A stretch of 31,049 nt of DNA from a virus, in IMG/VR virus record IMGVR_UViG_3300042890_001306, positions 1 through 31,049 of that record; one strand, written 5' to 3'. The translations under genes and the position numbers were made by a program. The notes beneath the pieces are model-generated. The model searched no databases. It saw only the letters and a list, made by a program, of their open reading frames with translations, and was not told the DNA's origin. Within the stretch, counting starts at the first letter, position 1. Every line of letters starts with the position of its first letter. Positions 2,456 to 29,806 of the stretch are shown here, piece by piece.

Positions 2456-2605
2456 ATGGAGAAAGACAAAATGATACCAATGAATGTGGACCTACACTTA
2501 AAGTTGAAGGTCTATTGTGCAAAGAACGGACTACAAATCAAAAAGTTTGTTGAAGAATTAGTTAGTGATAAATTAAAATTGGAGGGACAGAAAAATGAGA
2601 ATTAA
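2456..2605 (+). CDS. Ribbon-helix-helix-like small DNA-binding protein
   Basis: The 49-aa protein reads as a short beta strand (MIPMNVDLHLKLK) and two helices (VYCAKNGLQIKKFVEELVSD), the layout of CopG/Arc-type ribbon-helix-helix repressors, which bind operators as dimers. Two starts are possible: ATG 2456, or ATG 2471, which gives an A-rich leader and keeps the whole fold. Its end overlaps the next gene by 11 bases. As the first gene of the replication-like operon beside a divergent promoter, it is a likely autoregulator. A similar 53-aa protein is encoded at 8403. Confidence 0.65.
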   Translation: MEKDKMIPMNVDLHLKLKVYCAKNGLQIKKFVEELVSDKLKLEGQKNEN

Positions 2606-3014
2606 GAATGTTTTAATATATGAAAGTATTTGGGATATGATACCAAAACTAACTGACCAACAAGTTGCTTGTTTGTTTAGAGGGATTTCTGATTGGAGAT
2701 TAGGGGTTCAACCAGTATTTAATGACCCATTGATTCAGGGTGTTTGGTTTGGGATTGAACCAAACTTACTTAAACTTGAACAGGAATACAACAGGAAGGT
2801 TGAGGCTAACCGAAATAATGGTAAATTAGGTGGTCGCCCAAAAACCCAAGTAAACCCAAATAACCCAAGTGGTTTTTTAGAAACCCAACCTAACCCAAAT
2901 AACCTTAAAGAGAAAGAGAAAGATAAGGATAAAGAGAAAGAGAGAGATATAGATAAGGATATGGATATAGATAAGGAATTAGATAGGATTTTAGAAATGA
3001 AAAATATAAGATGA
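2595..3014 (+). CDS. Replication-initiator-like protein with charged tail (DUF6291-like)
   Basis: The first 85 residues of this 139-aa protein resemble the short N-terminal domain of phage and plasmid replication or regulatory proteins (DUF6291-like): YESIWDMIPKLTDQQVACLF, then the marker NRNNGKLGGRPK near residues 73-84. A linker of NPNNP-type repeats follows, then a strongly charged Lys/Glu/Asp tail from about residue 105. No helicase or polymerase domain is present, so it would recruit host machinery. The linker-coding DNA holds phased AACCCAA repeats and a purine tract, as in phages whose origin lies inside the initiator gene. Role inferred. Confidence 0.55.
   Translation: MRIKNVLIYESIWDMIPKLTDQQVACLFRGISDWRLGVQPVFNDPLIQGVWFGIEPNLLKLEQEYNRKVEANRNNGKLGGRPKTQVNPNNPSGFLETQPNPNNLKEKEKDKDKEKERDIDKDMDIDKELDRILEMKNIR
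2843..2977 (+). repeat. Phased iterons and purine tract, candidate replication origin
   Basis: Five copies of AACCCAA start at 2843, 2853, 2862, 2882 and 2892, spaced 10, 9, 20 and 10 bases, so they sit on one face of the helix. They are followed by a tract (about 2907-2990) that is almost all purine on this strand. It includes two exact copies of GATATAGATAAGGA at 2946-2959 and 2964-2977. The array lies in the linker region of a replication-initiator-like gene, as the lambda origin does in gene O. The repeats also encode a low-complexity NPNNP linker, which is the competing explanation. Confidence 0.45.
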
Positions 3015-3214
3015 AAGACCTAACCAATATACCTGAAAGATTTCATTGTTTATTCTTAACTGATTGGAACAATGGAAATGAGAGTGAGATGAAAAGCGTA
3101 GAGCGTAGTCAGATGGGTGATTTATTCCTTGAGTATAACCGATGGGATATTCAACGAATGATTGATTCAAAGAAACCAGTTCAACAAGAAAATATGGTTG
3201 GATTTGTAGATTAA
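3011..3214 (+). CDS. Hypothetical protein, 67 aa
   Basis: The protein begins MKDLTNIPERFHCLFLTDWN and is predicted soluble and mixed helical. I do not recognise it. Its ATG overlaps the stop of the initiator-like gene (ATGA), so the two are translationally coupled and probably act together, for example in replication start. It is the last gene before the intergenic small-RNA region, and no terminator is seen directly after it. Confidence 0.65.
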   Translation: MKDLTNIPERFHCLFLTDWNNGNESEMKSVERSQMGDLFLEYNRWDIQRMIDSKKPVQQENMVGFVD

Positions 3215-3217
3215 AAT

Positions 3218-3249
3218 ATTGATTCACTCAACGGGATTTACTATATTTA
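3218..3249 (+). promoter_or_regulatory. Promoter of the intergenic small-RNA candidate
   Basis: ATTG at 3218-3221, 20 bases, then TATATTTA at 3242-3249. It shares ACTATATTTA with the promoter at 2419-2450 and has the same spacing. No ORF follows before the terminator at 3330-3359. Confidence 0.55.
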
Positions 3250-3252
3250 TTA

Positions 3253-3359
3253 TTGTAGGTCGTCTTATTCATCATATCGTATTAAAGTTCCCGTTTTAGT
3301 ATCTATGACCTACGGTTGATTCACACATAGTCCCCAATGAAAGTTGGGGATTTTTTTTT
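3253..3359 (+). ncRNA. Candidate phage small RNA, about 105 nt
   Basis: The 207-base gap between genes contains a promoter-like pair (3218-3249), a predicted transcript start near 3254, and a strong intrinsic terminator ending at 3359. The transcript can fold a stem of 9-11 pairs between 3253-3263 (TTGTAGGTCGT) and 3305-3315 (ATGACCTACGG) with a loop of about 40 nt, followed by the terminator hairpin. No ORF of useful size lies inside. It sits between the candidate origin and the mini-gene array, so it could be a regulatory RNA or a replication-linked transcript. No known RNA family is recognised. Confidence 0.5.
3330..3359 (+). terminator. Rho-independent terminator
   Basis: The stem TCCCCAA / TTGGGGA with a six-base loop (TGAAAG) is followed by nine T residues. 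It ends the candidate small RNA and probably also read-through from the 2456-3214 operon. It insulates the following gene, which has its own -7 box. Confidence 0.85.
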
Positions 3360-3390
3360 GCTACTATGATGCTGGTTTAAAAAATAGTTG

Positions 3391-3398
3391 TATCTTTG
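3391..3398 (+). promoter_or_regulatory. -7 box for the first array gene
   Basis: TATCTTTG is a perfect Bacteroidota -7 box. The following GTAAGACAAT stretch resembles the leader of the other array promoters. It lies 23 bases before ATG 3422, the same spacing as the rest. No good -33 TTTG is present at 19-21 bases (best GATG or TGAT), so it may be weaker or depend on an activator. Confidence 0.55.
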
Positions 3399-3421
3399 TA
3401 AGACAATAAACGGGAAACATT

Positions 3422-3991
3422 ATGGAAAAGAAAAGATTTAAATGTGTTGATAACTTGTATGAGTTCAAATCTTATATTCAAGATTTAAAGTATGGTTCTG
3501 ACTGTGCATACAGAGCATTACAGATTCAAGGTAAAACCAATTATGATATCAACTTTGGATTTATGTTATGTCGTAAATCTTTGATGAATGGAGTAGACGA
3601 GAACTTTAAAAGTGTTGGTGGTGGTTATTGTATGCCTTATGCGTGGCATGTATGGAATGAAACAGATGATACAATCTATGATAGTTGTGGAGCATTACAA
3701 CGATGGGGATTTGATGTATGTGATGTTGAGAATGTATTGATAGTTGATGCACCAAGAATTAAATCAGTTAAAGAGTTTGATAAGTGGGTAAGTAGATTTG
3801 CAAAAAGTTTAATTACCAAAGGATTACCACCAGTTGTCTACATTCAAGGTCTTGGTATGGATACAGATAATGAAGGTAATTGGTTCGTTATTGGTGATGA
3901 CCACTTCAACAATAAGTTAGATATTATTGACGCTAATCATAATATTACAGGATTTACTGAAACAAATATTGTAAAAGTTTTGGCAGATTAA
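3422..3991 (+). CDS. Hypothetical protein with possible Cys-His-Asp site
   Basis: This 189-aa protein is the largest in the array. Residues 67-90 read GGGYCMPYAWHVWNETDDTI then YDSC. The order Cys (28 or 70), His76, Asp87 recalls papain-like or transglutaminase-like folds, where an HAW motif is followed by an Asp in a hydrophobic strand. This is suggestive only, because no full family signature is seen. There is no signal peptide or membrane span. The last three codons (LAD) overlap the -33 box of the next promoter. Roles to consider are a host-modifying enzyme or, less likely, a lysis enzyme. Confidence 0.65.
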   Translation: MEKKRFKCVDNLYEFKSYIQDLKYGSDCAYRALQIQGKTNYDINFGFMLCRKSLMNGVDENFKSVGGGYCMPYAWHVWNETDDTIYDSCGALQRWGFDVCDVENVLIVDAPRIKSVKEFDKWVSRFAKSLITKGLPPVVYIQGLGMDTDNEGNWFVIGDDHFNNKLDIIDANHNITGFTETNIVKVLAD

Positions 3992-4010
3992 AATAGAATG
4001 CATACCTTTG
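3979..4010 (+). promoter_or_regulatory. Array promoter 1
   Basis: TTTG at 3979-3982, 20 bases starting GCAGATTAAAATAGAA, then TACCTTTG at 4003-4010. The -33 box lies inside the last codons of the upstream gene, and its stop is in the spacer. The next ATG is 25 bases beyond the -7 box. Confidence 0.85.
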
Positions 4011-4035
4011 TTAGACAATTAAACAGATAGACACT

Positions 4036-4332
4036 ATGAAAAAGGCAACCAAAAAAGAAGTATTAGAAATGGCAATCCAACAACAACAAAAATATGAGGA
4101 ACTTGTATGGTTTGCTCGTAGTGGTAGAAACGCTCATATGCCAGTTGTAAAGAATCATAGAGAGAGAATTGAGGGAATGTATCCACAAGAGGTTAAAAAT
4201 CTCTCAGGTGAGACAGGAGATTGGTCTCATGGATTTAATTCAGGTATGTTGGCTGGTATGAGATTGATTGTCTCAATGATGGAATACAGCACAGAACACG
4301 CAACAGAAAACTTTCCTGAATTAGATTCATAA
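4036..4332 (+). CDS. Hypothetical protein, 98 aa
   Basis: The protein starts with a basic, Gln-rich helix (KEVLEMAIQQQQKYEELVWF) and has a second part with GDWSHGFNSGMLAGMRL. That motif reads like a conserved helix-turn segment of small phage proteins of unknown function. It is soluble and less acidic than its neighbours. It has its own promoter, and the next promoter begins four bases after its stop, so it is a self-contained cassette. No function can be assigned. Confidence 0.7.
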   Translation: MKKATKKEVLEMAIQQQQKYEELVWFARSGRNAHMPVVKNHRERIEGMYPQEVKNLSGETGDWSHGFNSGMLAGMRLIVSMMEYSTEHATENFPELDS

Positions 4333-4336
4333 TTTA

Positions 4337-4368
4337 TTTGGCAGATTAAAATAGAATCAGTAACTTTG
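4337..4368 (+). promoter_or_regulatory. Array promoter 2
   Basis: TTTG at 4337-4340, 20 bases, TAACTTTG at 4361-4368. The upstream gene stops just before the -33 box. Homology with array promoter 4 extends further upstream through ATTCATAAT. The next ATG follows after 17 bases, the shortest leader of the set. Confidence 0.85.
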
Positions 4369-4385
4369 TAGAAACAATTAAAGAC

Positions 4386-4667
4386 ATGAAAAACATTAGA
4401 GTATACGACATTGATTACTTGTATTTGGAAGATGAAAAATACGCAAGAGAATACAATCAAGATTTTCAACTCACTGAAGATGAAATCAAAGAACGCATTG
4501 AACATCTCAAATCTAACAGAGAGGTAATCTTCAAGTTTGACGAATGGGAAATTGATGAAGAAGATTGGAATGATGAAGAAAATATGGAAGATGTTTTGGT
4601 TGATTGGCTTGAATCAGAAACAGGAGAATATTTTTGTAGATATGAATGGGAATATTTGGCAGATTAA
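4386..4667 (+). CDS. Acidic hypothetical protein, 93 aa
   Basis: Asp and Glu make up roughly a third of the residues, with clusters such as DEWEIDEEDWNDEENMEDVL and many aromatic residues. It is soluble and rich in predicted helix. Small, highly acidic, aromatic-rich early phage proteins can mimic DNA and inhibit host DNA-binding enzymes (Ocr is the classic case), but no sequence resemblance to such a family is visible, so this is only a possibility. It ends in YLAD because the next promoter's -33 box and spacer are read in frame. Confidence 0.7.
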   Translation: MKNIRVYDIDYLYLEDEKYAREYNQDFQLTEDEIKERIEHLKSNREVIFKFDEWEIDEEDWNDEENMEDVLVDWLESETGEYFCRYEWEYLAD

Positions 4668-4686
4668 AATAGAATACATACCTTTG
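4655..4686 (+). promoter_or_regulatory. Array promoter 3
   Basis: TTTG at 4655-4658, 20 bases, TACCTTTG at 4679-4686. It overlaps the last codons (LAD, stop) of the upstream gene. It is followed by GTAAGACACTTAACAATTAA and the ATG at 4711. Confidence 0.87.
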
Positions 4687-4710
4687 TAAGACACTTAACA
4701 ATTAAAAGAC

Positions 4711-4980
4711 ATGGGAAAAGAAATTATTTTTAGCGAAGGAAGTCCTGTAAAAGGCAAGAAAGACATTATCAATTTCATGAAATACATGAAAAAGAAATAC
4801 AACATCAAACAAGAAAAAGGTGTTGCTGATGCTGTGGTAAACGCTTACCTACAATCACCAACAGGTAAAGACCACATCGTTATGCATAATGTGAATGATG
4901 AGTGGTTCTTAAACTTTTTATCTAATGATGAGGTATTGGGTCAAGTTGAAATTGAACCAGAGACCAAAATATATTCATAA
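4711..4980 (+). CDS. Hypothetical protein, 89 aa
   Basis: The protein begins MGKEIIFSEGSPVKGKKDII, has a basic helix (MKYMKKKYNIKQEK), then a strand-rich C-terminal half (DHIVMHNVNDEWFLNFLSND). It is less acidic than the neighbouring array proteins. I recognise no family. It is a single-gene cassette with promoters on both sides, and the gene stops before the following -33 box. Expression with the other array genes is expected soon after infection, inferred from the host-type promoter. Confidence 0.7.
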   Translation: MGKEIIFSEGSPVKGKKDIINFMKYMKKKYNIKQEKGVADAVVNAYLQSPTGKDHIVMHNVNDEWFLNFLSNDEVLGQVEIEPETKIYS

Positions 4981-4984
4981 TATA

Positions 4985-5016
4985 TTTGGCAGATTGAAAT
5001 AGAATACATACCTTTG
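4985..5016 (+). promoter_or_regulatory. Array promoter 4
   Basis: TTTG at 4985-4988, 20 bases (GCAGATTGAAATAGAATACA), TACCTTTG at 5009-5016. One spacer base differs from array promoter 3, and the leader is nearly identical. It drives two genes, at 5041 and 5278. Confidence 0.87.
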
Positions 5017-5040
5017 TAAGACACTTAACAACTAAAAGAC

Positions 5041-5271
5041 ATGAATAAACAAGAATTAACCCAATTAGAAGAACTCATTCACAAATTACATTGTGAATAT
5101 CCAAACTCATTTGTTGTTGGAAATTATGTAATCCAACCAATGTATTGGTCAGAAGACAATGATGGTAATATCAACTATGATGTTGAGAGTATGAGAGATG
5201 AGTTTAATGTAATATGTTCTAATTTAGAGGAACATAATGAAAACTCTGATTTTGATTGGGATAATATGTAG
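5041..5271 (+). CDS. Acidic hypothetical protein, 76 aa
   Basis: A helical N-terminus (MNKQELTQLEELIHKLHCEY) precedes a strand-rich middle (FVVGNYVIQPMYWSEDNDGN) and a very acidic end (NENSDFDWDNM). There is no membrane span and no recognised family. The stop is six bases before the next ATG with no promoter between, so this gene and the 75-aa gene form the only two-gene cassette among the LAD-type units. Function unknown. Confidence 0.68.
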   Translation: MNKQELTQLEELIHKLHCEYPNSFVVGNYVIQPMYWSEDNDGNINYDVESMRDEFNVICSNLEEHNENSDFDWDNM

Positions 5272-5277
5272 TAAGAT

Positions 5278-5505
5278 ATGAAAAACATAGATATAACACA
5301 CTTAATAACAGAACAGGAGATAATCAGTAAGTATGAGTATTTCTTGGAATATACAGGTGAAGGAGACCCTGTGGAACAACTAATCTATATGTTTTGGGAA
5401 GGTGAGGAAGGATATGGTAATCCTTATGATTTAACCGAACAAGAACACGATGATTTGATTAGACCAGTATTGGAAGAATATTTTAGAAAACATTTGGCAG
5501 ATTAA
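5278..5505 (+). CDS. Acidic hypothetical protein, 75 aa
   Basis: The protein is rich in Glu and Tyr (EQEIISKYEYFLEYTGEGDP and LTEQEHDDLIRPVLEEYF) and is predicted mostly helical. It is cotranscribed with the 76-aa gene. The terminal LAD is encoded by the next promoter's -33/spacer bases. No known family. Its acidity matches several array neighbours, which might point to a common mode of action such as binding basic host proteins, but this is speculative. Confidence 0.68.
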   Translation: MKNIDITHLITEQEIISKYEYFLEYTGEGDPVEQLIYMFWEGEEGYGNPYDLTEQEHDDLIRPVLEEYFRKHLAD

Positions 5506-5524
5506 AATAGAAAGCATACCTTTG
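5493..5524 (+). promoter_or_regulatory. Array promoter 5
   Basis: TTTG at 5493-5496, 20 bases, TACCTTTG at 5517-5524, overlapping the upstream gene's LAD-stop end. The leader GTAAGACACTTAACAACTAA leads to ATG 5548. Confidence 0.87.
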
Positions 5525-5547
5525 TAAGACACTTAACAACTAAAGAC

Positions 5548-5736
5548 ATGAACATTACAGAAATCCACAACCTACTTTTATCAATTCAAACACAAGCAAA
5601 TAATGCAATCCAAGAACACAGATGTGATGACTATACCATTGAAGAACAACAATGGAATGAACAACTTTGGATAGGTGTTAAGATTGGTGCTGAAACCTTA
5701 TACAAAAAAATCCAAGAAAAACATTTGGCAGATTAA
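5548..5736 (+). CDS. Hypothetical protein, 62 aa
   Basis: The protein is short, helical and Gln-rich: LLLSIQTQANNAIQEHRCDD and EEQQWNEQLWIGVKIGAETL are the visible segments. It has no membrane span, zinc motif or recognised family. It is a single-gene cassette between two near-identical promoters, and it ends with KHLAD, the same tail as the 75-aa protein, because both read through the same promoter sequence. Confidence 0.65.
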   Translation: MNITEIHNLLLSIQTQANNAIQEHRCDDYTIEEQQWNEQLWIGVKIGAETLYKKIQEKHLAD

Positions 5737-5755
5737 AATAGAATACATAACTTTG
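5724..5755 (+). promoter_or_regulatory. Array promoter 6
   Basis: TTTG at 5724-5727, 20 bases, TAACTTTG at 5748-5755, overlapping the LAD-stop end of the upstream gene. ATG 5779 follows after 23 bases. Confidence 0.87.
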
Positions 5756-5778
5756 TAAGACACTAAACAACTAAAGAC

Positions 5779-6135
5779 ATGGACAATACACTAATTCAAG
5801 ACAACTTTGACGAACTATTAAAATTGACTAAAGAGGATAGAAATGTTGTAATACAATATTTCAACAACTGGTCAGAATCTTATCCCGCATATTTTGAGGA
5901 TAATGATACACTCCAAGAAAAAATGGAGAAATCATTTATCAAATGGTTTAATGAAAATCATGATATGGAAAGTTTTACTGCTGAAGATGTTATGGAATAC
6001 CATAACGATGGATTAAATGAAATGGCATCATTATGGGAATACGAGGTTGATACAATCTTATCTTATTACAAGGGTGAATACGATGAAGAATTATTCAAAG
6101 AATTAGTTGAAGAATATTTGGCAGAACAAGAATAA
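5779..6135 (+). CDS. Acidic hypothetical protein, 118 aa
   Basis: A soluble, helical, acidic protein with many aromatic residues: VVIQYFNNWSESYPAYFEDN, then SFTAEDVMEYHNDGLNEMAS. It resembles no family I know. It ends EYLAEQE: the first residues of the shared tail are kept, but a change in the promoter spacer removes the usual stop and adds three residues. The -33 box of the next promoter therefore lies wholly within this gene. Confidence 0.7.
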   Translation: MDNTLIQDNFDELLKLTKEDRNVVIQYFNNWSESYPAYFEDNDTLQEKMEKSFIKWFNENHDMESFTAEDVMEYHNDGLNEMASLWEYEVDTILSYYKGEYDEELFKELVEEYLAEQE

Positions 6136-6148
6136 TTCAGTATCTTTG
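6117..6148 (+). promoter_or_regulatory. Array promoter 7
   Basis: TTTG at 6117-6120, 20 bases (diverged spacer GCAGAACAAGAATAATTCAG), TATCTTTG at 6141-6148. Unlike the others it is followed by a leader of about 115 nt before the next ATG. Confidence 0.82.
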
Positions 6149-6164
6149 TAAGACAATTAAAGGA

Positions 6165-6224
6165 AACGATTCAGATACCATTATTTAATTGGACACTCAT
6201 AAGGGGAAGGAACGATTCAGATAC
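6165..6224 (+). repeat. Duplicated leader element
   Basis: AACGATTCAGATAC occurs at 6165-6178 and 6211-6224, 46 bases apart, each preceded by an AAGG-like purine run and followed at some distance by TTTTAATT-like sequence. The copies lie in an ATG-free leader between array promoter 7 and the 43-aa membrane peptide gene. They may be operators, protein-binding sites in the RNA, or the remnant of a duplication. Confidence 0.6.
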
Positions 6225-6268
6225 AACTACCCTTTTAATTTGTAAAACCCTAAAAAAAAAACATAGAC

Positions 6269-6400
6269 ATGGAAACACAAAACAAAAACAACCAAGAACA
6301 AATCAACGACCTTAACTTTAAGGCAACTGTAGTCCTCCTTCAAGGAGTAGTGGCAATCGCTTCAGCAGTATTCGCACTTTATGTATTGATTACATTGTAG
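6269..6400 (+). CDS. Single-span membrane peptide, 43 aa
   Basis: A polar Asn/Gln-rich N-terminus (METQNKNNQEQINDLNF) is followed by one hydrophobic span from about residue 20 to the end (VVLLQGVVAIASAVFALYVL). An A-rich leader precedes the ATG. This is the first of three consecutive genes for small single-span proteins, each with its own promoter. Possible roles are lysis, superinfection exclusion or modulation of host membrane proteins; the sequence does not choose among them. The -33 box of the next promoter overlaps its last codons. Confidence 0.6.
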   Translation: METQNKNNQEQINDLNFKATVVLLQGVVAIASAVFALYVLITL

Positions 6401-6424
6401 GTTCAAGAAAAAGTAGTATATTTG
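6394..6424 (+). promoter_or_regulatory. Promoter of the 57-aa membrane peptide gene
   Basis: ATTG at 6394-6397 (inside the end of the upstream gene), 19 bases, then TATATTTG at 6417-6424. The leader GTAGAACAAT resembles the other array leaders. ATG 6448 follows after 23 bases. Confidence 0.75.
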
Positions 6425-6447
6425 TAGAACAATCTAAAAAAAACAAT

Positions 6448-6621
6448 ATGTCGTTATTCAACTCAATCAGTAAAGGTTTCGGTATGTCTCTTGGAAGCAC
6501 AGCCGCAAAGAAAGTAACAAGTTCAAACATTGATGGAACATTCAAGATGGTTTGGGGATTATTCAAATGGTCTATGATTATCACATTTATTTTTGGAATG
6601 ATTCAAGGATTTATGGAATAA
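6448..6621 (+). CDS. Single-span membrane peptide, 57 aa
   Basis: The protein has a Ser/Gly/Lys-rich N-terminal half (MSLFNSISKGFGMSLGSTAA) and one hydrophobic C-terminal segment of about 22 residues (MVWGLFKWSMIITFIFGMIQ) ending in GFME. It has its own promoter and its stop directly precedes the next promoter. No recognised family. The amphipathic N-terminus with a C-terminal anchor could place it in the host inner membrane. Confidence 0.6.
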   Translation: MSLFNSISKGFGMSLGSTAAKKVTSSNIDGTFKMVWGLFKWSMIITFIFGMIQGFME

Positions 6622-6625
6622 AATA

Positions 6626-6657
6626 TTTGGTAGAATAAAATAGAATTAGTATATTTG
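6626..6657 (+). promoter_or_regulatory. Array promoter 8
   Basis: TTTG at 6626-6629, 20 bases (GTAGAATAAAATAGAATTAG), TATATTTG at 6650-6657. It is a diverged copy of the array unit that keeps AAAATAGAAT in the spacer. It drives the genes from 6683 to 7249. Confidence 0.83.
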
Positions 6658-6682
6658 TATAACAATTAAAAACATAAAAGAC

Positions 6683-6865
6683 ATGGAAAAACAACTTAAA
6701 ACAATGGAACAGAAAATGGCAGAGAACCCAAACGAAATCATGGAGAACGGATTGACTCGTGCTCACAACGACAAAATCAACAAAGATGGTGATACATTCG
6801 CAGGTATCATTCACTTGGCGGTAGGAATCTTTTTATTATACACCGTAATCCAAATCATCTTGTAA
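6683..6865 (+). CDS. Single-span membrane protein, 60 aa
   Basis: About 38 polar residues (MEKQLKTMEQKMAENPNEIM and following) precede a C-terminal hydrophobic span (FAGIIHLAVGIFLLYTVIQI). It is predicted to be anchored by its tail with the bulk in the cytoplasm. It is the first gene of a three-gene unit and is followed three bases later by the next gene. Function unknown. It is the third single-span peptide in a row. Confidence 0.62.
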   Translation: MEKQLKTMEQKMAENPNEIMENGLTRAHNDKINKDGDTFAGIIHLAVGIFLLYTVIQIIL

Positions 6866-6867
6866 TC

Positions 6868-7050
6868 ATGTGTAATCTAAACGAAGCAATGGAGGAACAA
6901 AGAGGGTCAGTCAACCAAGATGAGATTTTGGAGAAGATGTTCCAAGAAGAACAAGAAGAATACTACTTACAGTATTTCAAGGACCTACAGTTTGCAATGA
7001 ACGAACACTATAAAGAAATGGAGGGTGAAAATGTCGCAGAACAAAGATAG
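6868..7050 (+). CDS. Acidic hypothetical protein, 60 aa
   Basis: The protein is strongly acidic and rich in Glu, Gln and Tyr (ILEKMFQEEQEEYYLQYFKD) and probably one long helix. It lies in the same transcription unit as the membrane protein before it, and its 3' end overlaps the start of the next gene by 20 bases. No family recognised. Confidence 0.6.
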   Translation: MCNLNEAMEEQRGSVNQDEILEKMFQEEQEEYYLQYFKDLQFAMNEHYKEMEGENVAEQR

Positions 7051-7249
7051 ACAAATAGCAACACAATCAAGTTTGAAATTGGTTAACGATTGGGCAAACA
7101 GTTGTGGAAAATGTTTGGAACTGAAAGAACTTGTAGCCATCACCAATGTAATCGTAGATTATGTGGAGAAGGGTTACTCAAAAGAACTTGGGGATAGGTT
7201 GGACAAGATACAAGAGCATCTTGACCACAAGGGGTTACCTAAGAAATAG
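7031..7249 (+). CDS. Hypothetical protein, 72 aa
   Basis: I take ATG 7031 as the start, since a purine-rich GGAGGGTGAAA stretch lies just before it; a GTG at 7025 would add two residues. The protein is soluble and helical, with CGKCLELKELVAITNVIVDY in the middle and a basic end (HLDHKGLPKK). Two Cys in CGKC are not enough for a zinc site alone. It closes the array and is followed by a terminator. Confidence 0.6.
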   Translation: MSQNKDRQIATQSSLKLVNDWANSCGKCLELKELVAITNVIVDYVEKGYSKELGDRLDKIQEHLDHKGLPKK

Positions 7250-7270
7250 TGTTTCCATAATGTCGGAAAG

Positions 7271-7300
7271 GGTGTAGTATTTATTTACTACACCTTTTTT
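7271..7300 (+). terminator. Rho-independent terminator after the array
   Basis: GGTGTAGTA (7271-7279) pairs with TACTACACC (7286-7294) around a six-base loop, followed by six T. It ends the array transcripts and lies only four bases upstream of the next ATG, so read-through or an attenuator role is possible. Confidence 0.85.
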
Positions 7301-7304
7301 AATT

Positions 7305-7619
7305 ATGAAGAAATGTATTATATGTAATGAAATAAAACCCTATGAGGATTTCCATCGTCACTCAAACTCGTTAGATGGAAGATTGAATAAATGTAAGCCC
7401 TGTCTAAAACAATACACCTTAGACCTCAAGAACGGTAAGAGAATGAGCAAGGAGGAGGTAAGAGAAATCAGACAACACACCAAAGAGAAAGGAATGGCTC
7501 ATGAGAGAGAGATTACGAACTATATGTTAAGAGTGATGGGATACGAACCTGATTCACTAATATCAGTCCACGAACAATTTTTAGTCCGACATTTGCTTGA
7601 CGCTCACAAGGAAGTGTAA
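7305..7619 (+). CDS. Zinc-finger protein, CCCC type
   Basis: Cys4, Cys7, Cys30 and Cys33 ([13 protein letters not shown], then CKPC) form a four-Cys zinc site like those at the start of phage endonuclease-VII or HNH-like proteins. The usual nuclease core is not visible in this 104-aa protein. The remainder is charged and helical ([20 protein letters not shown]). The start codon follows the array terminator almost directly and no separate promoter is seen, so expression probably depends on read-through. A nucleic-acid-binding regulator is the most likely role, by inference. Confidence 0.65.
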
Positions 7620-7627
7620 TATATTTA
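7596..7627 (+). promoter_or_regulatory. Possible promoter inside the end of the zinc-finger gene
   Basis: CTTG at 7596-7599, 20 bases, then TATATTTA at 7620-7627. It has the same -7 sequence and spacing as the promoters at 2419 and 3218. A transcript would start near 7631 and run into the terminator at 7667-7705 without passing through an ORF. Confidence 0.4.
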
Positions 7628-7630
7628 TAC

Positions 7631-7705
7631 CTGACAGAAAGTCAGTCAATCTATTGTTTTTTTTTTAACCCCTAAGTTTTGATATTCTTAGGGGTTTTCT
7701 TTTTT
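7631..7705 (+). ncRNA. Possible second short RNA, about 75 nt
   Basis: Downstream of the promoter-like pair at 7596-7627 lies a hairpin CTGAC / GTCAG (7631-7645), then a T10 run and a strong terminator hairpin. No ORF is present. This could be a very short untranslated RNA or just the trailing region of the zinc-finger transcript with two hairpins. The support is weaker than for 3253-3359. Confidence 0.3.
7667..7705 (+). terminator. Rho-independent terminator before the late region
   Basis: AACCCCTAAG (7667-7676) pairs perfectly with CTTAGGGGTT (7687-7696) around a ten-base loop and is followed by a T-rich run to 7705. It separates the early and late regions. Confidence 0.88.
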
Positions 7706-7733
7706 ACTTCTGCACCAACCATACCTATATTTA
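7702..7733 (+). promoter_or_regulatory. Probable late-region promoter, TATATTTA class
   Basis: TTTT at 7702-7705, 20 bases, then TATATTTA at 7726-7733, preceded by CC. It shares CTATATTTA with the promoters at 2443 and 3242. It is the only promoter candidate seen before the terminase genes, and ATG 7750 lies 16 bases past the box. Confidence 0.5.
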
Positions 7734-7749
7734 TAGTAAATCAAAAATC

Positions 7750-7998
7750 ATGTGTAACTGTAAATCAGGTAAAGAACAAAAGTTAAATAACTTGGATTCA
7801 AACGACCATCTACAAGTGGCGTTTGATGCATACAACATCGTTGTAAAAGAGAAGGAAGTATCAGAGTATGATGATACAGATAAAGCGATTGTGATGTCTG
7901 CATTCTATGCAGTCTACCCAAATGCAAAGGGTGAGGTAACTGTTGAACACGCAACATTAACAATCAAAGGAATCTATTCACAATATAATGGAAAATAG
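7750..7998 (+). CDS. Hypothetical protein, 82 aa, first late gene
   Basis: The protein starts MCNCKSGKEQKLNNLDSNDH and is otherwise mixed helix and strand (AFDAYNIVVKEKEV, then HATLTIKGIYSQYNGK). The CNC at the start could bind a metal, but two Cys alone do not show it. Its end overlaps the small terminase gene by 11 bases, so the two are coupled. It may act in packaging, by association only. Confidence 0.65.
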   Translation: MCNCKSGKEQKLNNLDSNDHLQVAFDAYNIVVKEKEVSEYDDTDKAIVMSAFYAVYPNAKGEVTVEHATLTIKGIYSQYNGK

Positions 7999-8419
7999 GA
8001 AAGGACCAGGAAGACCTCGTTTGGAAGAAACGATGAATCCTGAATGGTATAAGATAATCGTAGAGGCAGGTAGAGATGGAAAACACATCACACAATTCTT
8101 GATTGAGTTGGGTATTTCGTGGGAGAGTCACTACGCATTACTCAAAAGAAACAAGAAATATTTGGAAGCGTTCAATGAGTATGAGAAACTCTGTGAGCAG
8201 TGGTGGTTTGAAAGAGCATACGATGCAATGGCATCAGGTGAATCTAACAAGTTCAATCAGAGGTTGTGGACCATCATCATGAAGAACAAGTTTAAGAACA
8301 ACTGGCAAGACGAGAACAAGGTGGACATCACAACCAAAGGTGATAAGTTAAATCCACAAGACAACACCATTCAGGTTGAGATAATCCGTAAGAGTATTGA
8401 AGATGAAAATCAAAAGTAA
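7988..8419 (+). CDS. terS: Terminase small subunit
   Basis: This 143-aa protein starts with an AT-hook-like GPGRPR, then an HTH-type region (ITQFLIELGISWESHYALLK) and helices containing FNEYEKLCEQWWFERAYDAM. That layout is typical of small terminase subunits, which recognise the packaging site and feed DNA to the motor. The C-terminus is extended and charged and probably contacts the large subunit. The large subunit follows after one small gene. Function is assigned from motif pattern and position. Confidence 0.82.
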   Translation: MENRKGPGRPRLEETMNPEWYKIIVEAGRDGKHITQFLIELGISWESHYALLKRNKKYLEAFNEYEKLCEQWWFERAYDAMASGESNKFNQRLWTIIMKNKFKNNWQDENKVDITTKGDKLNPQDNTIQVEIIRKSIEDENQK

Positions 8420-8564
8420 GAATGGGGAAAAAACCTATGAGTATGATTACAAGATGATTTTGGTCTATGGTAAAGTTAGAGAACAACTCAAGGATTATTG
8501 TAAGAAAAAAGGACAGACCTACACACAGGTCATTAGTCATTGGTTAAGACAAGAAAATAAATGA
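8403..8564 (+). CDS. Ribbon-helix-helix-like protein between the terminase genes
   Basis: The 53-aa protein overlaps the small terminase end by 17 bases and the large terminase start by 4 (ATGA). It reads as a strand (DYKMILVYGKV) and two helices (REQLKDYCKKKGQTYTQVIS, then HWLRQ), like the RHH protein at 2456; both have a helix with YCxKxG. An RHH protein within the packaging genes could help recognise the packaging site or regulate the late operon, which is inference. Confidence 0.6.
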   Translation: MKIKSKNGEKTYEYDYKMILVYGKVREQLKDYCKKKGQTYTQVISHWLRQENK

Positions 8565-9727
8565 GGATAAGGGCAAATGGGTTATTTGAAGAAGTATCAC
8601 AAAAGATACAGGAAGGAAAGAGATACATATCTTTACGAGGCTCCTCTCGTTCAGGAAAGACCGTATGTGCCCTACAAACAATCATATTGGAGTGTCTCAC
8701 CAAACCAGGAACGACAACGACCATTGCTCGTGAAACTCAGGTCTCTATTAAGAACACCGTCTTTATTGACTTTAAGGAACAAATGGAGGAACTACAGATT
8801 TGGGACGACTCAAGATACAACAAAGTAGAAATGGTCTACAGGTTCACCAATGGTTCAATCGTTCGTTTCATTGGACTTGATGATACCACAGGTAAGTTGA
8901 GGGGAATGAAATCTAACATCTGTTTGGTTGATGAGGTCAATACGGTTAGTATGTCGGCATTCGTTCAGTTGGACATCAGAACATCAGAGTATATCTTGAT
9001 GTGTTACAACCCTGAGATTCCAACTGACTGGTGGGGATTGGATTACGAGAAAAAAGAGAATGGGTGTGTATTGATTTCAACATGGAGGGACAACGCATTC
9101 TTGGACCAACGAATCATTGACTCAATCAACTCATTAAAAGAAACTGACTATGACCTGTGGTTGATTTACTCTGAAGGTCAGATAGTCCCTCCAAGAGAGG
9201 TTGTGTATGTTCAACCAAGCATATACGATGAAGAACCACAAGGGATTAAATATACCTATTACGGATTGGACTTTGGTTTTGCCAAAGATGTCTGTGCTGT
9301 TGTTGAGGTCAAAGCACGAGACAAGGAAATATTCGTAAGGGAAATCATTTACGAAGCAGGACTCACGAATGAGGACCTTGCGTTCCTACTCAAAGACAAA
9401 GGGATAAGTAGAATGGACAACATCGTGGCAGATTCATCAGAACCCAAATCAATTGCCGAGTTAAACAGGTCAGGTCTAAATGTTCGTGGAGTTAAAAAGG
9501 GAACAGGGTCAGTTCTCTTTGGAATCCAAAAGTTAAGACAATTCAAGATACACATTCATAAGGACTCACACAACCTCATCACTGAGTTCACTAATTATAG
9601 ATATAAAAAAGATAGACAGGGACGAATAACGAATCAGACAGAAGGTGATGACCACGCCTTAGATGCCTTGAGATATGTTGTATCAGAGTTCCTTGATACC
9701 AAACCAAAAAAGTTCACATTTGTATGA
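8561..9727 (+). CDS. terL: Terminase large subunit
   Basis: The 388-aa packaging ATPase/nuclease has both domains intact. Walker A is GSSRSGKT at residues 27-34, Walker B is CLVDEVN at 121-127, and a coupling-type CYNP lies at 148-151. The nuclease half has YGLDFGF with Asp237, IVADSSEP with Asp291, and GDDHALDALRY with Asp364 and Asp368, the metal-binding acids of the RNase H-like fold. It is of the PBSX/Terminase_3 kind. It cuts concatemers and pumps DNA through the portal. Its stop overlaps the next gene's start by four bases. Confidence 0.95.
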   Translation: MRIRANGLFEEVSQKIQEGKRYISLRGSSRSGKTVCALQTIILECLTKPGTTTTIARETQVSIKNTVFIDFKEQMEELQIWDDSRYNKVEMVYRFTNGSIVRFIGLDDTTGKLRGMKSNICLVDEVNTVSMSAFVQLDIRTSEYILMCYNPEIPTDWWGLDYEKKENGCVLISTWRDNAFLDQRIIDSINSLKETDYDLWLIYSEGQIVPPREVVYVQPSIYDEEPQGIKYTYYGLDFGFAKDVCAVVEVKARDKEIFVREIIYEAGLTNEDLAFLLKDKGISRMDNIVADSSEPKSIAELNRSGLNVRGVKKGTGSVLFGIQKLRQFKIHIHKDSHNLITEFTNYRYKKDRQGRITNQTEGDDHALDALRYVVSEFLDTKPKKFTFV

Positions 9728-10517: not shown

Positions 10518-11891
10518 ATGAGTAATATAATGAACGAATATACCACCTTCCATAAGGTGTTAGATTACCTCCAATATTTTCAGGAACAATCCCCGATGTT
10601 GAACACATTCGGTTATGGAAACTTGGTGGATTTTGGAAAGAATGTTTCTGGTTCGTCTGTGAACTACCCATTCTTATTTGTGGTGCCACAGGCAATAGAG
10701 TATCAGGAGAATATGACCGTATATTCTGTTACCATGATTTTTGCGGACATCTTGAATTGGGACTTATCTAATGAAAAGGATTGTGTATCTGATATGAGTA
10801 TGGAAGCCAAGAGATTTCTGGCATACCTGAAGTATGGTCAGAATACCTTACCAACATTATACGACAATATTGATGTGAATATGCCAGTTCAGGCAATCCC
10901 ATTCTTTGAGAGATTTGGAGACCATGTGGCAGGGGTTGCTATGGAAGTCCCATTGATTGTTTATGATACATTGGATTCGTGTGATTATTACCCAACACCA
11001 ACAGCGACACCAGGTCCTGAACCAACACCAACGGTTACAGCAACCAATACTGCAACTCCAACGGTTACCCCTACAAACACATCAACACCAACATCAACAC
11101 CAGTATTAAGTCCAACACCTACGACCACTTCAACCTCAACTCCGACACCGACTCAAACAGGAACTCCTACTCAAACTCAAACACCTACAAATACTTCAAC
11201 ACCAACGAATACACCTACCACAACTACCACTTTAACGGCGACACCAACATTAACTCAAACACCAACATCAAGTCCTATATCAACAGTATCGTTCTTTGTA
11301 ACTACAGGTCAAAGTATCTATGAAGCATTTAGTTCAAGTGCCACAACAACATTATACACGGCGGATATTGGAAATTGTGGACCTTGTACCAGTGGTGGAA
11401 TAACTTGTTTCCCTTGTCTTACAACAAATCAAGTTTTATATCTTGACCCATCTTTAACAATTTTGGCTCCAAATGGATTCTATACGAATGAGATGTCTTC
11501 AGGAAACTATGGAACGATTACAGTATTTGGAACTAAAGAAGTTGCTGGTGGATTCTTTGGTGGGGCACCAAGTCCTCCATCACCTCCATCAGGTTCACAC
11601 CCTTATACATTTACAGGATATTCTGTTAATGGAACTTATACCACAGGTTGTGATGCTAACCCATTATCAGGTGGAACACCAATAACATTATATGGTGATG
11701 CTGATTGTTTAGACACAAATGGTTATTTGTATAATGTAACATCAGGAACATCAACAACTAATCTATTTGGTTCTTATTACTTTAGTTTACCACAATCGGT
11801 TCCTGGATGTGGAAGTGGAAATATCATATTTAACTTGGATAAAGATGGTCGTGTATCAAGATTTTTCCAAAACCCATCAACCCTTTGTTAA
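10518..11891 (+). CDS. Tail terminator-like protein with Thr/Pro linker and Cys-rich C-domain
   Basis: Of 457 aa, residues 1-155 resemble a tail terminator/completion protein: helix KVLDYLQYFQEQSPMLNTFG, strands, MEAKRFLAYLKYG and a final strand VAMEVPLIVYDTLDSCDY. Residues about 158-255 are a low-complexity Thr/Pro/Ser/Asn linker. The last 200 residues are a beta-rich, Cys-containing region with two similar modules (LYLDPSLTILAPNGFYTN, then ITLYGDADCLDTNGYLYN) ending in LC. Tail terminators normally lack such an extension, so this one probably displays a surface domain at the neck. Confidence 0.72.
   Translation: MSNIMNEYTTFHKVLDYLQYFQEQSPMLNTFGYGNLVDFGKNVSGSSVNYPFLFVVPQAIEYQENMTVYSVTMIFADILNWDLSNEKDCVSDMSMEAKRFLAYLKYGQNTLPTLYDNIDVNMPVQAIPFFERFGDHVAGVAMEVPLIVYDTLDSCDYYPTPTATPGPEPTPTVTATNTATPTVTPTNTSTPTSTPVLSPTPTTTSTSTPTPTQTGTPTQTQTPTNTSTPTNTPTTTTTLTATPTLTQTPTSSPISTVSFFVTTGQSIYEAFSSSATTTLYTADIGNCGPCTSGGITCFPCLTTNQVLYLDPSLTILAPNGFYTNEMSSGNYGTITVFGTKEVAGGFFGGAPSPPSPPSGSHPYTFTGYSVNGTYTTGCDANPLSGGTPITLYGDADCLDTNGYLYNVTSGTSTTNLFGSYYFSLPQSVPGCGSGNIIFNLDKDGRVSRFFQNPSTLC
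10991..11283 (+). repeat. Thr/Pro linker repeat in the tail terminator gene
   Basis: About 290 bases of degenerate ACNCCNAC-type trinucleotide-phased repeats encode TPTxTPT runs. Short exact words such as ACTCAAACAGGAACTCCT recur here and in the fibre gene at 26928-26970, which makes recombination between the genes possible. Confidence 0.85.
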
Positions 11892-12470: not shown

Positions 12471-14140
12471 GTATAGCATTTACATCAACACCAGCAGAGT
12501 TTCAACCCGTATTATCAGACGGGATATATTTTACATTATCATCGGACACATACAATCCGTTAAGCACATTCAAGTTCAAATATAACTACGAGTTGTATGT
12601 TGAGGACCTATTGGTCTTTGAGGGTAAGTGTTCACCAAACCCTTTTGGACTTGGGATATTGGATTTACAACAAATCCTTGAGACCTACACAGATTCATTA
12701 CCACTATCGTATTGGAACACCACACCAATTTATACACACCAAACATTCCCATTCTCAAGACCATTGAATCAGGAGACAATCAACTACTATGTGAAGGTTG
12801 GTTATGAGTATGCGGATACAGAGATTGGTTCAATTACAGGATACACTGGTTTTGGAAACTCCATTGGACCACCAGCAGTTGAGAGTATCCCATACAAAGT
12901 ATTCCGTTCAACAATGGGGGTGAATCCAAAAGCCACAGAACAAAGTTTTGATATAGGTCAGTTCGTATTATCAGGAACACCAGCAGGTGTGAACCCAACA
13001 ACATCTAACCTATTCTTAACAAACGCACCAAGAACATTAGATGTGATGGAGGACGACTACTTCACATTGGGGTTCACAAACTATTATCTTTGGTCTGGTT
13101 CAACATCAGGACTCTCAGAGGGGTATTATGTGAAATACACATTTATTGACGACCAGGGAGCCGTAATCACCGCAACCACATACGACAATATTATATCAAA
13201 TGGTGGTGGTCCAAGACCTAACTGTAATTTGGTGTATCAGAACTACCCATTGATATATCCCGCCACAGGAACTACAGATTACAACACACTTTATGTGGGA
13301 GCAGGACCAGCAAACTTACCATACATTCCACCAAACGCAGTTCAATATACCGTTCAGTTGTATGGAAGATTTACAGGTTCAACAATTCCAATTCAACCAA
13401 CCCCAACTCCGACAGCAACTGTGGGAACAACCCCAACTCCTACAGGTAGTCCAACTCCGACACCTACGGCATATTGTAGTGGTTGCACCGAGTATCAAAT
13501 CAGTTATACAGGTTCAGGTCAATATAGTGTTGGATTTACAAATTGCACCAATGGTAGATTTGGTCAGTTGGTATTACAACCTAATTTGGGTTATGTTGTA
13601 TGTTCATGCACCTACCCAATCACAGAGGTTGCAGCAACAATCATAAATGCTGGTCCATGTAATCCAATCCCAACACCAACTCCGACACCAAGTCCAACAA
13701 GTGCTTGTGTATGTATTGAATATGGGGTAACGAACAACACACCATATACAGATGAGATTAGATGGTTAAATTGTAATGGAACGGTTGGGACATTCTCATT
13801 AGCAGGTAACTCAGGAATGGCTCCATTCTGTGCATGTCAGGATTCAATAACCTCAACATTCTCAGTTGTGGGTGTAATTGGTTCTTGTTCAACAACAACT
13901 CCAACTCCGACACCTACCCCTACAGTAACCCCATCAGCAAACTGTATCACTTGTTATCAGTTGAATATATCAAACAATAATGCAGTGACTTGTCCTGTCC
14001 AATACTACAACTGTTCAGCAAGTAGATGGGAGACAATTAACATAGCAGGTTTCACATCGGTAATCATACCTTGTGGTTGTCCAAACATAATCACAGATTG
14101 TGCAAACATAACAGTAATAACAGGAGCAGCCTGTTCATAA
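12467..14140 (+). CDS. Tail protein with three Cys-rich surface modules
   Basis: The 557-aa protein has residues 1-305 as a beta-rich N-terminal domain (YNYELYVEDLLVFEGKCSPN and a long set of strands) of the kind found in Bacteroidota-phage tail proteins. Then come three modules of about 62 residues each at roughly 335-398, 412-474 and 491-557. All follow C..C or C..Y, then YxNC, a CxC or CGC, and a final GxC. They are separated by Thr/Pro linkers at about 310-334, 401-411 and 476-490. The modules probably form beta-sandwich decorations facing outward. The gene overlaps the gp10-like gene by four bases. Confidence 0.68.
   Translation: MSIAFTSTPAEFQPVLSDGIYFTLSSDTYNPLSTFKFKYNYELYVEDLLVFEGKCSPNPFGLGILDLQQILETYTDSLPLSYWNTTPIYTHQTFPFSRPLNQETINYYVKVGYEYADTEIGSITGYTGFGNSIGPPAVESIPYKVFRSTMGVNPKATEQSFDIGQFVLSGTPAGVNPTTSNLFLTNAPRTLDVMEDDYFTLGFTNYYLWSGSTSGLSEGYYVKYTFIDDQGAVITATTYDNIISNGGGPRPNCNLVYQNYPLIYPATGTTDYNTLYVGAGPANLPYIPPNAVQYTVQLYGRFTGSTIPIQPTPTPTATVGTTPTPTGSPTPTPTAYCSGCTEYQISYTGSGQYSVGFTNCTNGRFGQLVLQPNLGYVVCSCTYPITEVAATIINAGPCNPIPTPTPTPSPTSACVCIEYGVTNNTPYTDEIRWLNCNGTVGTFSLAGNSGMAPFCACQDSITSTFSVVGVIGSCSTTTPTPTPTPTVTPSANCITCYQLNISNNNAVTCPVQYYNCSASRWETINIAGFTSVIIPCGCPNIITDCANITVITGAACS
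13397..13470 (+). repeat. Thr/Pro linker repeat in the tail protein gene
   Basis: The word CCAACTCCGACACCTAC and close variants recur. Shorter linkers of the same type at 13668-13703 and 13891-13938 separate the following Cys-rich modules. Confidence 0.8.
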
Positions 14141-28317: not shown

Positions 28318-29806
28318 AAAAAAGTTTAGTAACTATTTGGGAGAACAAAGAGCGATAGATGATATTGTTGTCGCATATACTACTGACCCAACACCAACAC
28401 CTACGCCATCTATTACCCCAACTCTAACTCCTACAGGAACTCCTACGGCGACTCCTAATCCAACATCTACACCTACACCATCTATTACCCCAACTCAAAC
28501 TCAAACACCAACCACAACTCCTACGAATACTCCTACGAATACAGGAACACCAACACAAACTCCGACAAATACAGCAACGCCTACATTTACACCTACCCCG
28601 ACTCAAACTCCTAACGCTCTTTGTCCTCAACAACTTATCTTGAGTGCATCTTCACCGAGCTACTTATACGGATTATACAATAGAGCAACAATTTATACTG
28701 GTGGAACATTTGAGACCGCTTGGTATAACTTTGATGATAACATAATGAACTATGGAACTAACCCTGACGGAAACGACTATGTGGCTTTCTCAATCAATTC
28801 GGGTAGTGATTATACTTCGTTATATTGGAGTAGTGATATATTGGGTAATGATGGTAATTGGACTATCGCTTACTCAACTGGTAATACCTTATTTAACGGA
28901 GGAACTCTAATCAGTTCAATTATATTGGATACTGACTCTTTGCTTAGTGGTAGTTTGTTCTTCCCACCAAATGGTTTCTTACAATTTAATGGTGGTTATA
29001 TCAATTATCCTGCGTCTTGTCCTACACCGACTCCTACCCCGACTAACACAAAAACACCAACTATGACCCCTACTCCTTCAGCAGCGGCTTGGACTCCAGC
29101 ACAAATGACTGCATTATGGGATTGGTGGACGGCAAGTAGTGGTGTAACAACAGCATTTGGTTATGTTATTGGTTGGCAGGGATATAATGGAAATATTTTA
29201 CTTCCATTTAATAACAATACTAATAATAGTTATATTTCATCTGATTCTTCATTTAATAATCAACCTTCAGTCAATATAAACACCACTCAATTATCAGCTG
29301 GTGATGTAGGACTTACAACTTTAGTTAGTAGCGCATCTAGTGTGAGTAAGTGTCAAATTATTGTTGGTCAAGTTATTTGGAAAACTGGTGGTGATACATC
29401 TATTATTGCAGCTTGGGGGGCGGAAAACAACCCAAGATTTGCTATGTTTAGTCAGCCAGGAACACCATTAGTTGATTATTATGCCGATGTATCAGGATAT
29501 AATCAAGGGACAGGTTATTTTGAACCAAGCAATTATGTATTCGCAAGACAACAATATAATTTCTCAAATGGAGAATTAAGATATTATGAGTCATCAGCAA
29601 ATACCTTTAATAATCAAATTGGAACATATACAGCATCATCAGGACTAAACTTTGTAAATGGATACTTTACAGTAGGGTCTTATAGAGGTCAATTTGGTTC
29701 AACTCCAAATATGAAGGTTGTAGAGGTTATTGGATTAAACGCAATTCCTACAAGCACAGAACTTACACAGTTATCAACATATATTACAAACAAATACGGA
29801 ATATAA
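28298..29806 (+). CDS. Second modular adhesin with lectin-like C-terminus
   Basis: Of 502 aa, a 30-residue basic anchor ([20 protein letters not shown]) is followed by a Thr/Pro linker (30-105), a beta-rich domain (about 106-240) starting with [20 protein letters not shown], a short linker (242-262), and a C-terminal domain ending [16 protein letters not shown]. That ending is typical of concanavalin/LamG-like domains in Bacteroidota phage and host proteins. The anchor differs from that of the first adhesin, so the two may attach at different virion sites. Cell-surface binding is the inferred role. Confidence 0.7.
28387..28614 (+). repeat. Thr/Pro linker repeat in the second adhesin gene
   Basis: Repeated C-T-A-C triplets encode TPTPT runs. 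An internal duplication of CCATCTATTACCCCAACT is seen. A shorter linker lies at about 29020-29082. Confidence 0.85.

Follow-up and report, generated by a model that had tools for sequence, protein, structure and literature searches.

The virus record IMGVR_UViG_3300042890_001306 from IMG/VR carries an array of 11 genes (A to K) laid out between repeated copies of a short promoter unit. We analyzed the entire record, a stretch of 31,049 bases referred to here as the window. In our reading, to which we give a probability of roughly three in four, this array is a gene-cassette array of a tailed Bacteroidota phage that is rearranged by homologous recombination at its promoters. At the level of sequence comparison, 4 features are seen: the units with their common consensus, the reordering of genes among relatives, junctions that fall inside units, and an enrichment of such junctions over gene boundaries without a unit.

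Each unit consists of a TTTG box, a 20-nucleotide (nt) spacer, and a TAHHTTTG box. An earlier note on this DNA had placed eight copies, with the second box given as TAnnTTTG, at 3979, 4337, 4655, 4985, 5493, 5724, 6117, and 6626, with a spacing of exactly 20 nt; all of these positions and spacings proved exact, and every unit is on the + strand. The window holds no further + strand match at spacing 20 and none on the minus strand, spacings of 14–19 and 21–29 nt yield 0 matches, and the Markov expectation for the pattern is 0.06 per strand. The main Bacteroidota promoter, as refined in Flavobacterium johnsoniae, has the −7 box TAHHTTTG (PMC6847099). All eight units fit the Bacteroidota sigma-A promoter (−7 TAHHTTTG with a −33 TTTG about 20 nt upstream); by consensus they are host-type promoters, as the note had proposed, and their activity is predicted from this fit.

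The units resemble each other beyond their boxes. The type A spacer core, GCAGATTAAAATAGAA, is exact in five units and has 1 mismatch at 4985 and 2 at 6626, while the unit at 6117 departs from this core (GCAGAACAAGAATAATTCAG) and carries a second spacer, type B (GCAGAACAA...TAATTCAG). At 4655, 4985, and 5493, the leader reads exactly GTAAGACACTTAACAA, and at 5724 nearly so. A degenerate extra unit is located at about 6394 (ATTG-N19-TATATTTG); at 3391, a −7 box is followed by a similar leader but lacks a good −33 box. Five of the eight units begin within the preceding gene and give that gene its final codons and stop: TTG GCA GAT TAA within the unit reads LAD*, and the unit at 6117 reads LAEQE*.

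Comparison with relatives reveals how the array varies. The compared viral loci are labeled with L-numbers; the main relatives, L009 and L008, are metagenomic contigs. The L009 terminase is 97% identical to that of the window, and the two sequences are colinear on both sides of the array at 91–97% DNA identity. Within the array, L009 shares seven of the 11 genes (A, C, E, F, G, I, and K), is without B, D, H, and J, and has four other small genes. Gene order differs as well: C precedes E-F in the window and follows E-F in L009. A is 99% identical in L009; C is 98% identical, but moved. The earlier note held that relatives with the same genes in the same order would speak against its proposal, and L009 differs from the window in both content and order. 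The homology blocks end inside the array at window positions 4056, 4336, 4698, 5026, 5552, 5492, 5762, 6092, 6439, and 6621, and all 10 ends are at most 25 nt from a unit including its leader.

Several junctions appear to lie within the units themselves. Where the window has I, J, and K, L009 has I, one unit (at 6391), and K; the left part of this unit corresponds to the window unit at 6394 and its leader to that of window unit 8, so that it looks like the crossover product of these two units, or they like the products of the reverse event. The tail of F tracks the type of the next unit, ending in LAD* before type A in the window and in LAEQN* before type B in L009. Between the window and L009, the spacer type changes after F, after G, and before G, and the adjoining genes stay 86–97% identical. 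L008, whose terminase is 97% identical to that of the window, proceeds from the upstream terminator to one unit and on to gene K; it lacks window 3361–6622 (3.3 kb), with a single unit in its place. In another pair, L038 and L048, identity is 67.1% on the left and 99.9% over 1000 nt on the right, the switch occurs within a unit, and L038 has one additional cassette between two identical units. In these comparisons, genes are gained, lost, and reordered with breakpoints at units, in support of the earlier note.

The survey asked whether the ends of homology favor units over other gene boundaries. It covered 152 loci (113 clusters) and yielded 384 blocks of at least 85% identity in 46 clusters, over which intervals were bootstrapped. 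Compared with random placement, block ends are overrepresented 3.1 times at gene boundaries that bear a unit (2.5–3.9) and 1.3 times at unit-less ones (1.05–1.57). Among boundaries at most 1.5 kb from a unit, 51% of the unit-bearing and 21% of the unit-less ones are struck, a ratio of 2.46 (1.87–3.25). Left block ends cluster at the unit start, and right block ends just past the unit. In 35 of 46 loci, spacers resemble those of the same locus more than those of other loci. A first test against a uniform null at 75% identity gave a weaker effect, and the 85% threshold was adopted after that first look.

These observations suggest a simple mechanism. A cassette would comprise a promoter unit (−33 TTTG, 20-nt spacer, −7 TAHHTTTG, and a short A-rich leader) with one or two small genes, and would end in the next unit, often the source of the gene's last codons and stop. 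Since E and F stand under one promoter, the match of one promoter to one gene is not strict. Each cassette would be read by host RNA polymerase from the promoter that it carries, and a terminator-like hairpin on either side would insulate the whole stretch. Near-identical sequence extends over 45–60 nt in the units, so that any two of them could serve as partners in homologous recombination or strand annealing. Exchange within one genome, or between co-infecting phages, would then lead to the loss, gain, swapping, or reordering of whole genes. A crossover would keep all genes intact and supplied with a promoter, because the unit carries both the end of the upstream gene and the start of the downstream one. 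No integrase, transposase, or recombinase was recognized among the window proteins scanned, which were not all of its open reading frames (ORFs); the note had likewise expected no integrase. Host enzymes or a co-infecting phage would therefore have to act.

Several points weigh against recombination at the promoters. The process is deduced from sequence, and because the main relatives are metagenomic, some room for assembly error is left. Most survey loci were picked by the unit pattern, and their genes are simple ORF calls. Unit homology can itself draw block ends by up to about 50 nt, and boundaries matched for a width of 140–200 nt show no unit effect (33% versus 36%, small numbers). Part of the spacer, TTTGGYAGA..AAA, recurs in unrelated phages, and this shared core may reflect function instead of exchange. 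Finally, genes are also replaced away from units. Window 6868–7050 and L009 6632–6817 share their start (MCNL), have a similar end (ENVAEQ), and differ in the middle, an intragenic replacement with no unit nearby; part of 2595–3014 is another place of gene replacement without a unit. Hence, units are not the only hot spot.

Some of these points fit an alternative that we consider unlikely, but which survives better than any other. Here, selection for polymerase binding keeps the units, as ordinary promoters, alike; recombination is random and illegitimate, only joins at gene boundaries survive, and boundaries in this region happen to be promoters. The recurrence of the spacer core would be expected (although the search pattern biases this observation), as would the mild enrichment at unit-less boundaries and the gene replacement outside the array. 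Yet, within the same zones, boundaries with a unit are struck 2.4–2.5 times as often as those that have none, spacer types switch among relatives next to genes that are well conserved, one unit looks hybrid, and the identity of another pair switches inside a unit. Much less probable is that the units are sites for a site-specific recombinase or transposase, supplied in trans by the host or another phage in an integron-like manner. The cassette-like behavior, the preserved orientation, and the short conserved boundary sequence are in line with this idea. Against it, the scanned proteins yielded no such enzyme, the conserved letters are the promoter letters, there is no Rfam match, and crossovers occur at varied positions (spacer, −7 box, leader, and start codon) instead of at one core. 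Assembly artifacts across the repeated units, conceivable where the main relatives are metagenomic contigs, are the least credible account, given that exact repeats span only about 30–45 nt (assumed to be shorter than a typical read), that the layout of cassettes between units recurs in many separate contigs, that L008, L009, and the window are different records that agree outside the array, and that cultured Flavobacterium phages reorder cassettes similarly at another repeat.

Cassettes related to those of the window are found well beyond its lineage. Phages that otherwise show little similarity have homologues of A, C, D, F, and two L009-only genes, again placed between two units. These include a 31% homologue of A with units on both sides (L040/L046), a 50% homologue of C between two units (L047), and homologues of D between units (L033 and L152). 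A 73-residue cassette is common to L009 and L039; its DNA homology runs from unit to unit, and the contexts differ. The homologue of B in L040/L046 has no adjoining units, and homologues of K mostly have none. Cassette proteins of unrelated phages (L009, L038, L047, L078, L126, and L033) end alike, in LAD, LAE, LAEQN, or LVD, since their last codons come from the promoter that follows. We tentatively entertain a broader proposal, at somewhat less than even odds: that the units, as stop, promoter, and crossover site in one, make up a cassette system that works without an integrase and is general among Bacteroidota phages, that distant phages use it to trade small anti-host genes one at a time, and that repeated exchange keeps the units of each genome alike.

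The gene products offer few hints regarding function. As the note had stated, the genes are short and unrelated at the level tested, with distinct sequences and no shared Pfam family. The array proteins have no significant match in Pfam, PHROG, or PADLOC (weak matches only), and profile scans with D and C added no new relatives. The predicted structure of C (predicted local distance difference test, pLDDT, 75) has no significant match in PDB (best fold match, E value 0.97), and that of A is poor (pLDDT 59). C, E, F, and H (75–118 residues) are strongly acidic, with isoelectric points (pI) of 4.05–4.24 and net charges of −14 to −24; this acidity is a hint of DNA mimicry. Together with an analogy to the methyltransferase cassettes of Flavobacterium phages, it hints that the cargo may consist of anti-host or anti-defense genes, which would be expressed early if the note's proposal holds.

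Features of the array and its flanks in the window (aa, amino acids; bp, base pairs)
Feature	Position	Strand	Basis or remark
Terminator-like hairpin and T-run, isolating the array upstream	3329..3359	+	10-bp stem, U9 tail, −14 kcal/mol, z −3.5
Unit-like leader with −7 box TATCTTTG, ahead of gene A; the −33 box is degenerate	3391..3421	+	Direct reading
Gene A, 189 aa; LAD* end from unit 1	3422..3991	+	ORF
Unit 1, predicted promoter TTTG-N20-TACCTTTG	3979..4010	+	Pattern match
Gene B, 98 aa	4036..4332	+	ORF; absent from L009
Unit 2, predicted promoter	4337..4368	+	Pattern match
Gene C, 93 aa, pI 4.05, net charge −22	4386..4667	+	ORF
Unit 3, predicted promoter, overlaps end of C	4655..4686	+	Pattern match
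Gene D, 89 aa	4711..4980	+	ORF; absent from L009
Unit 4, predicted promoter; spacer identical to that of the L009 unit between C and the 73-aa gene	4985..5016	+	
Gene E, 76 aa, pI 4.05	5041..5271	+	ORF
Gene F, 75 aa, pI 4.24; LAD* end	5278..5505	+	ORF
Unit 5, predicted promoter	5493..5524	+	Pattern match
Gene G, 62 aa	5548..5736	+	ORF
Unit 6, predicted promoter	5724..5755	+	Pattern match
Gene H, 118 aa, pI 4.05, net charge −24	5779..6135	+	ORF; absent from L009
Unit 7, predicted promoter, second spacer type; 18/20 to four L009 units	6117..6148	+	
Gene I, 43 aa	6269..6400	+	ORF; 95% identical in L009
Degenerate unit ATTG-N19-TATATTTG before J	6394..6424	+	Matches left half of L009 unit at 6391
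Gene J, 57 aa	6448..6621	+	ORF; absent from L009
Unit 8, predicted promoter; leader matches that of L009 unit at 6391	6626..6657	+	
Gene K, 60 aa; opens the conserved block downstream	6683..6865	+	Syntenic in L009 and L008
Terminator-like hairpin and T-run downstream of the genes that follow the array	7667..7706	+	−14.7 kcal/mol, z −4.5

L008 has the upstream hairpin as well, immediately ahead of its one unit; the downstream hairpin was found by folding and had been missed by a pattern scan for terminators. The units themselves show little structure. Two that were folded did no better than shuffles (z +1.1 and +1.4), and stems in the window spacers reach at most 4 bp. A spacer hairpin as a general feature of the units was rejected, with stems of at least 6 bp in 8 of 286 distinct units versus 6.3 expected. 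As a separate observation, a hairpin between the −33 and −7 boxes is striking in L040 (5854 and 7988), L046, and L141 (2255 and more), for example GGAGGATAGAAATATCCTCC; in the hairpin spacers of L040 and L141, a terminator-like stem overlaps the promoter, and this is not enriched overall. L141 (14,644 bases) carries a much longer array, with 25 promoter matches across 14.6 kb, of which many share one spacer.

The window codes for a large terminase (8561–9727), a tape measure protein, and head proteins; a 172-nt terminal repeat is present at both ends in copies that are 99% identical, and the small-gene run spans about 2.4–8.5 kb. The nearest terminases of named phages belong to Bacteroides phages (34% identity); together with the promoter type, this match indicates that the virus probably infects Bacteroidota. 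Scans of genome contigs for a host found no related terminase, and window 3001–8000 has no DNA match among named phages. The Bacteroides phages ARB25 and SJC12 are without any such array. A ribbon-helix-helix (Arc/Omega-like) repressor candidate is encoded upstream of the array, at 2456–2605, and could regulate the array promoters. Long threonine-proline-rich repeat tracts, common to several structural proteins, lie at 10983–11278, 13377–13466, 25353–27057, and 28385–28613.

We found no description of such arrays in Bacteroidota phages in the literature searched; most subscription journals lay outside the search, so this absence is unproven. Systems with partial resemblance are known. Like integron cassettes, the genes are small and exchangeable, share one orientation, and lie behind conserved boundary sequences. 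Unlike integrons, the window has no IntI tyrosine integrase among the proteins scanned, its units, read directly and not with a dedicated attC model, are without paired RYYYAAC/GTTRRRY attC boxes, and most cassettes bring their own promoter.

The cultured Baltic Flavobacterium phages (Muminvirus and Lillamyvirus) are a further parallel; in the study of these phages, one methyltransferase was tied to the efficiency of plating on a second strain (PMC7077304). In phage mumin6-1 (L163, 1397–8229), and also in L164, L165, and L167, leftward small genes and methyltransferases occur in shuffled order at 98.9–100% identity. The mumin-type joins fall at a roughly 27-nt repeat, TAACGTT..GGCTTT..GTTGC, and the sniff9-1 copy at 7809 appears to be a hybrid between two of the mumin copies. 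Shuffled blocks of small genes, joins at a short repeat, and one hybrid repeat are common to both; the Flavobacterium region differs from the window in its repeat, in having only one promoter unit of the present type, and in its DNA methyltransferase cargo. In cluster K mycobacteriophages, start-associated sequences (SAS) of 13 bp occur at translation starts, and extended SAS (ESAS) include 17-bp inverted repeats; in the available part of that account, ESAS sites stay with their gene family, are not reported as shuffling sites, and have no known function (PMC3203893). The likeness lies in a conserved asymmetric sequence just upstream of many unrelated small genes, and the extended part of ESAS varies by subcluster. 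It is a looser parallel than the one that follows.

The closest counterpart is the PeSL (promoter early stem-loop), a mobile regulatory cassette of T4-type phages reportedly described by Arbiol 2010 and Comeau 2014. Because promoter-bearing mobile regulatory cassettes had been described for T4-type phages in 2010, the words "new system," for which the earlier note had named the array its best candidate, are too strong. PeSLs are repeated promoter elements that sit among small accessory genes; these genes are intensely shuffled between related phages, and recombination at the elements has been proposed (PMC4503421). The present array likewise repeats a promoter element between the accessory genes of a plastic region, and the element is tied to gene shuffling between related phages. 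It differs in that the units, to judge from the two folded and from the short stems in the window spacers, have no stem-loop, the promoter is of the Bacteroidota −33/−7 type and not T4 early, the phage is about 31 kb with an unrelated gene set, and the unit supplies the end of the upstream ORF. With these two PeSL features present, and the stem-loop and the T4-type context missing, the array appears to work like PeSL cassettes without being one. If this reading is correct, there is a simple physical reason for the mobility of small accessory genes in Bacteroidota phages: a host-type promoter and the homology for exchange would travel along with each gene. Searches for the unit would collect a pool of candidate anti-host and anti-defense genes, some of them acidic like DNA mimics. 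In this manner, the promoter-cassette idea would extend beyond T4-type phages to unrelated phages with a different transcription system, suggesting convergent evolution.

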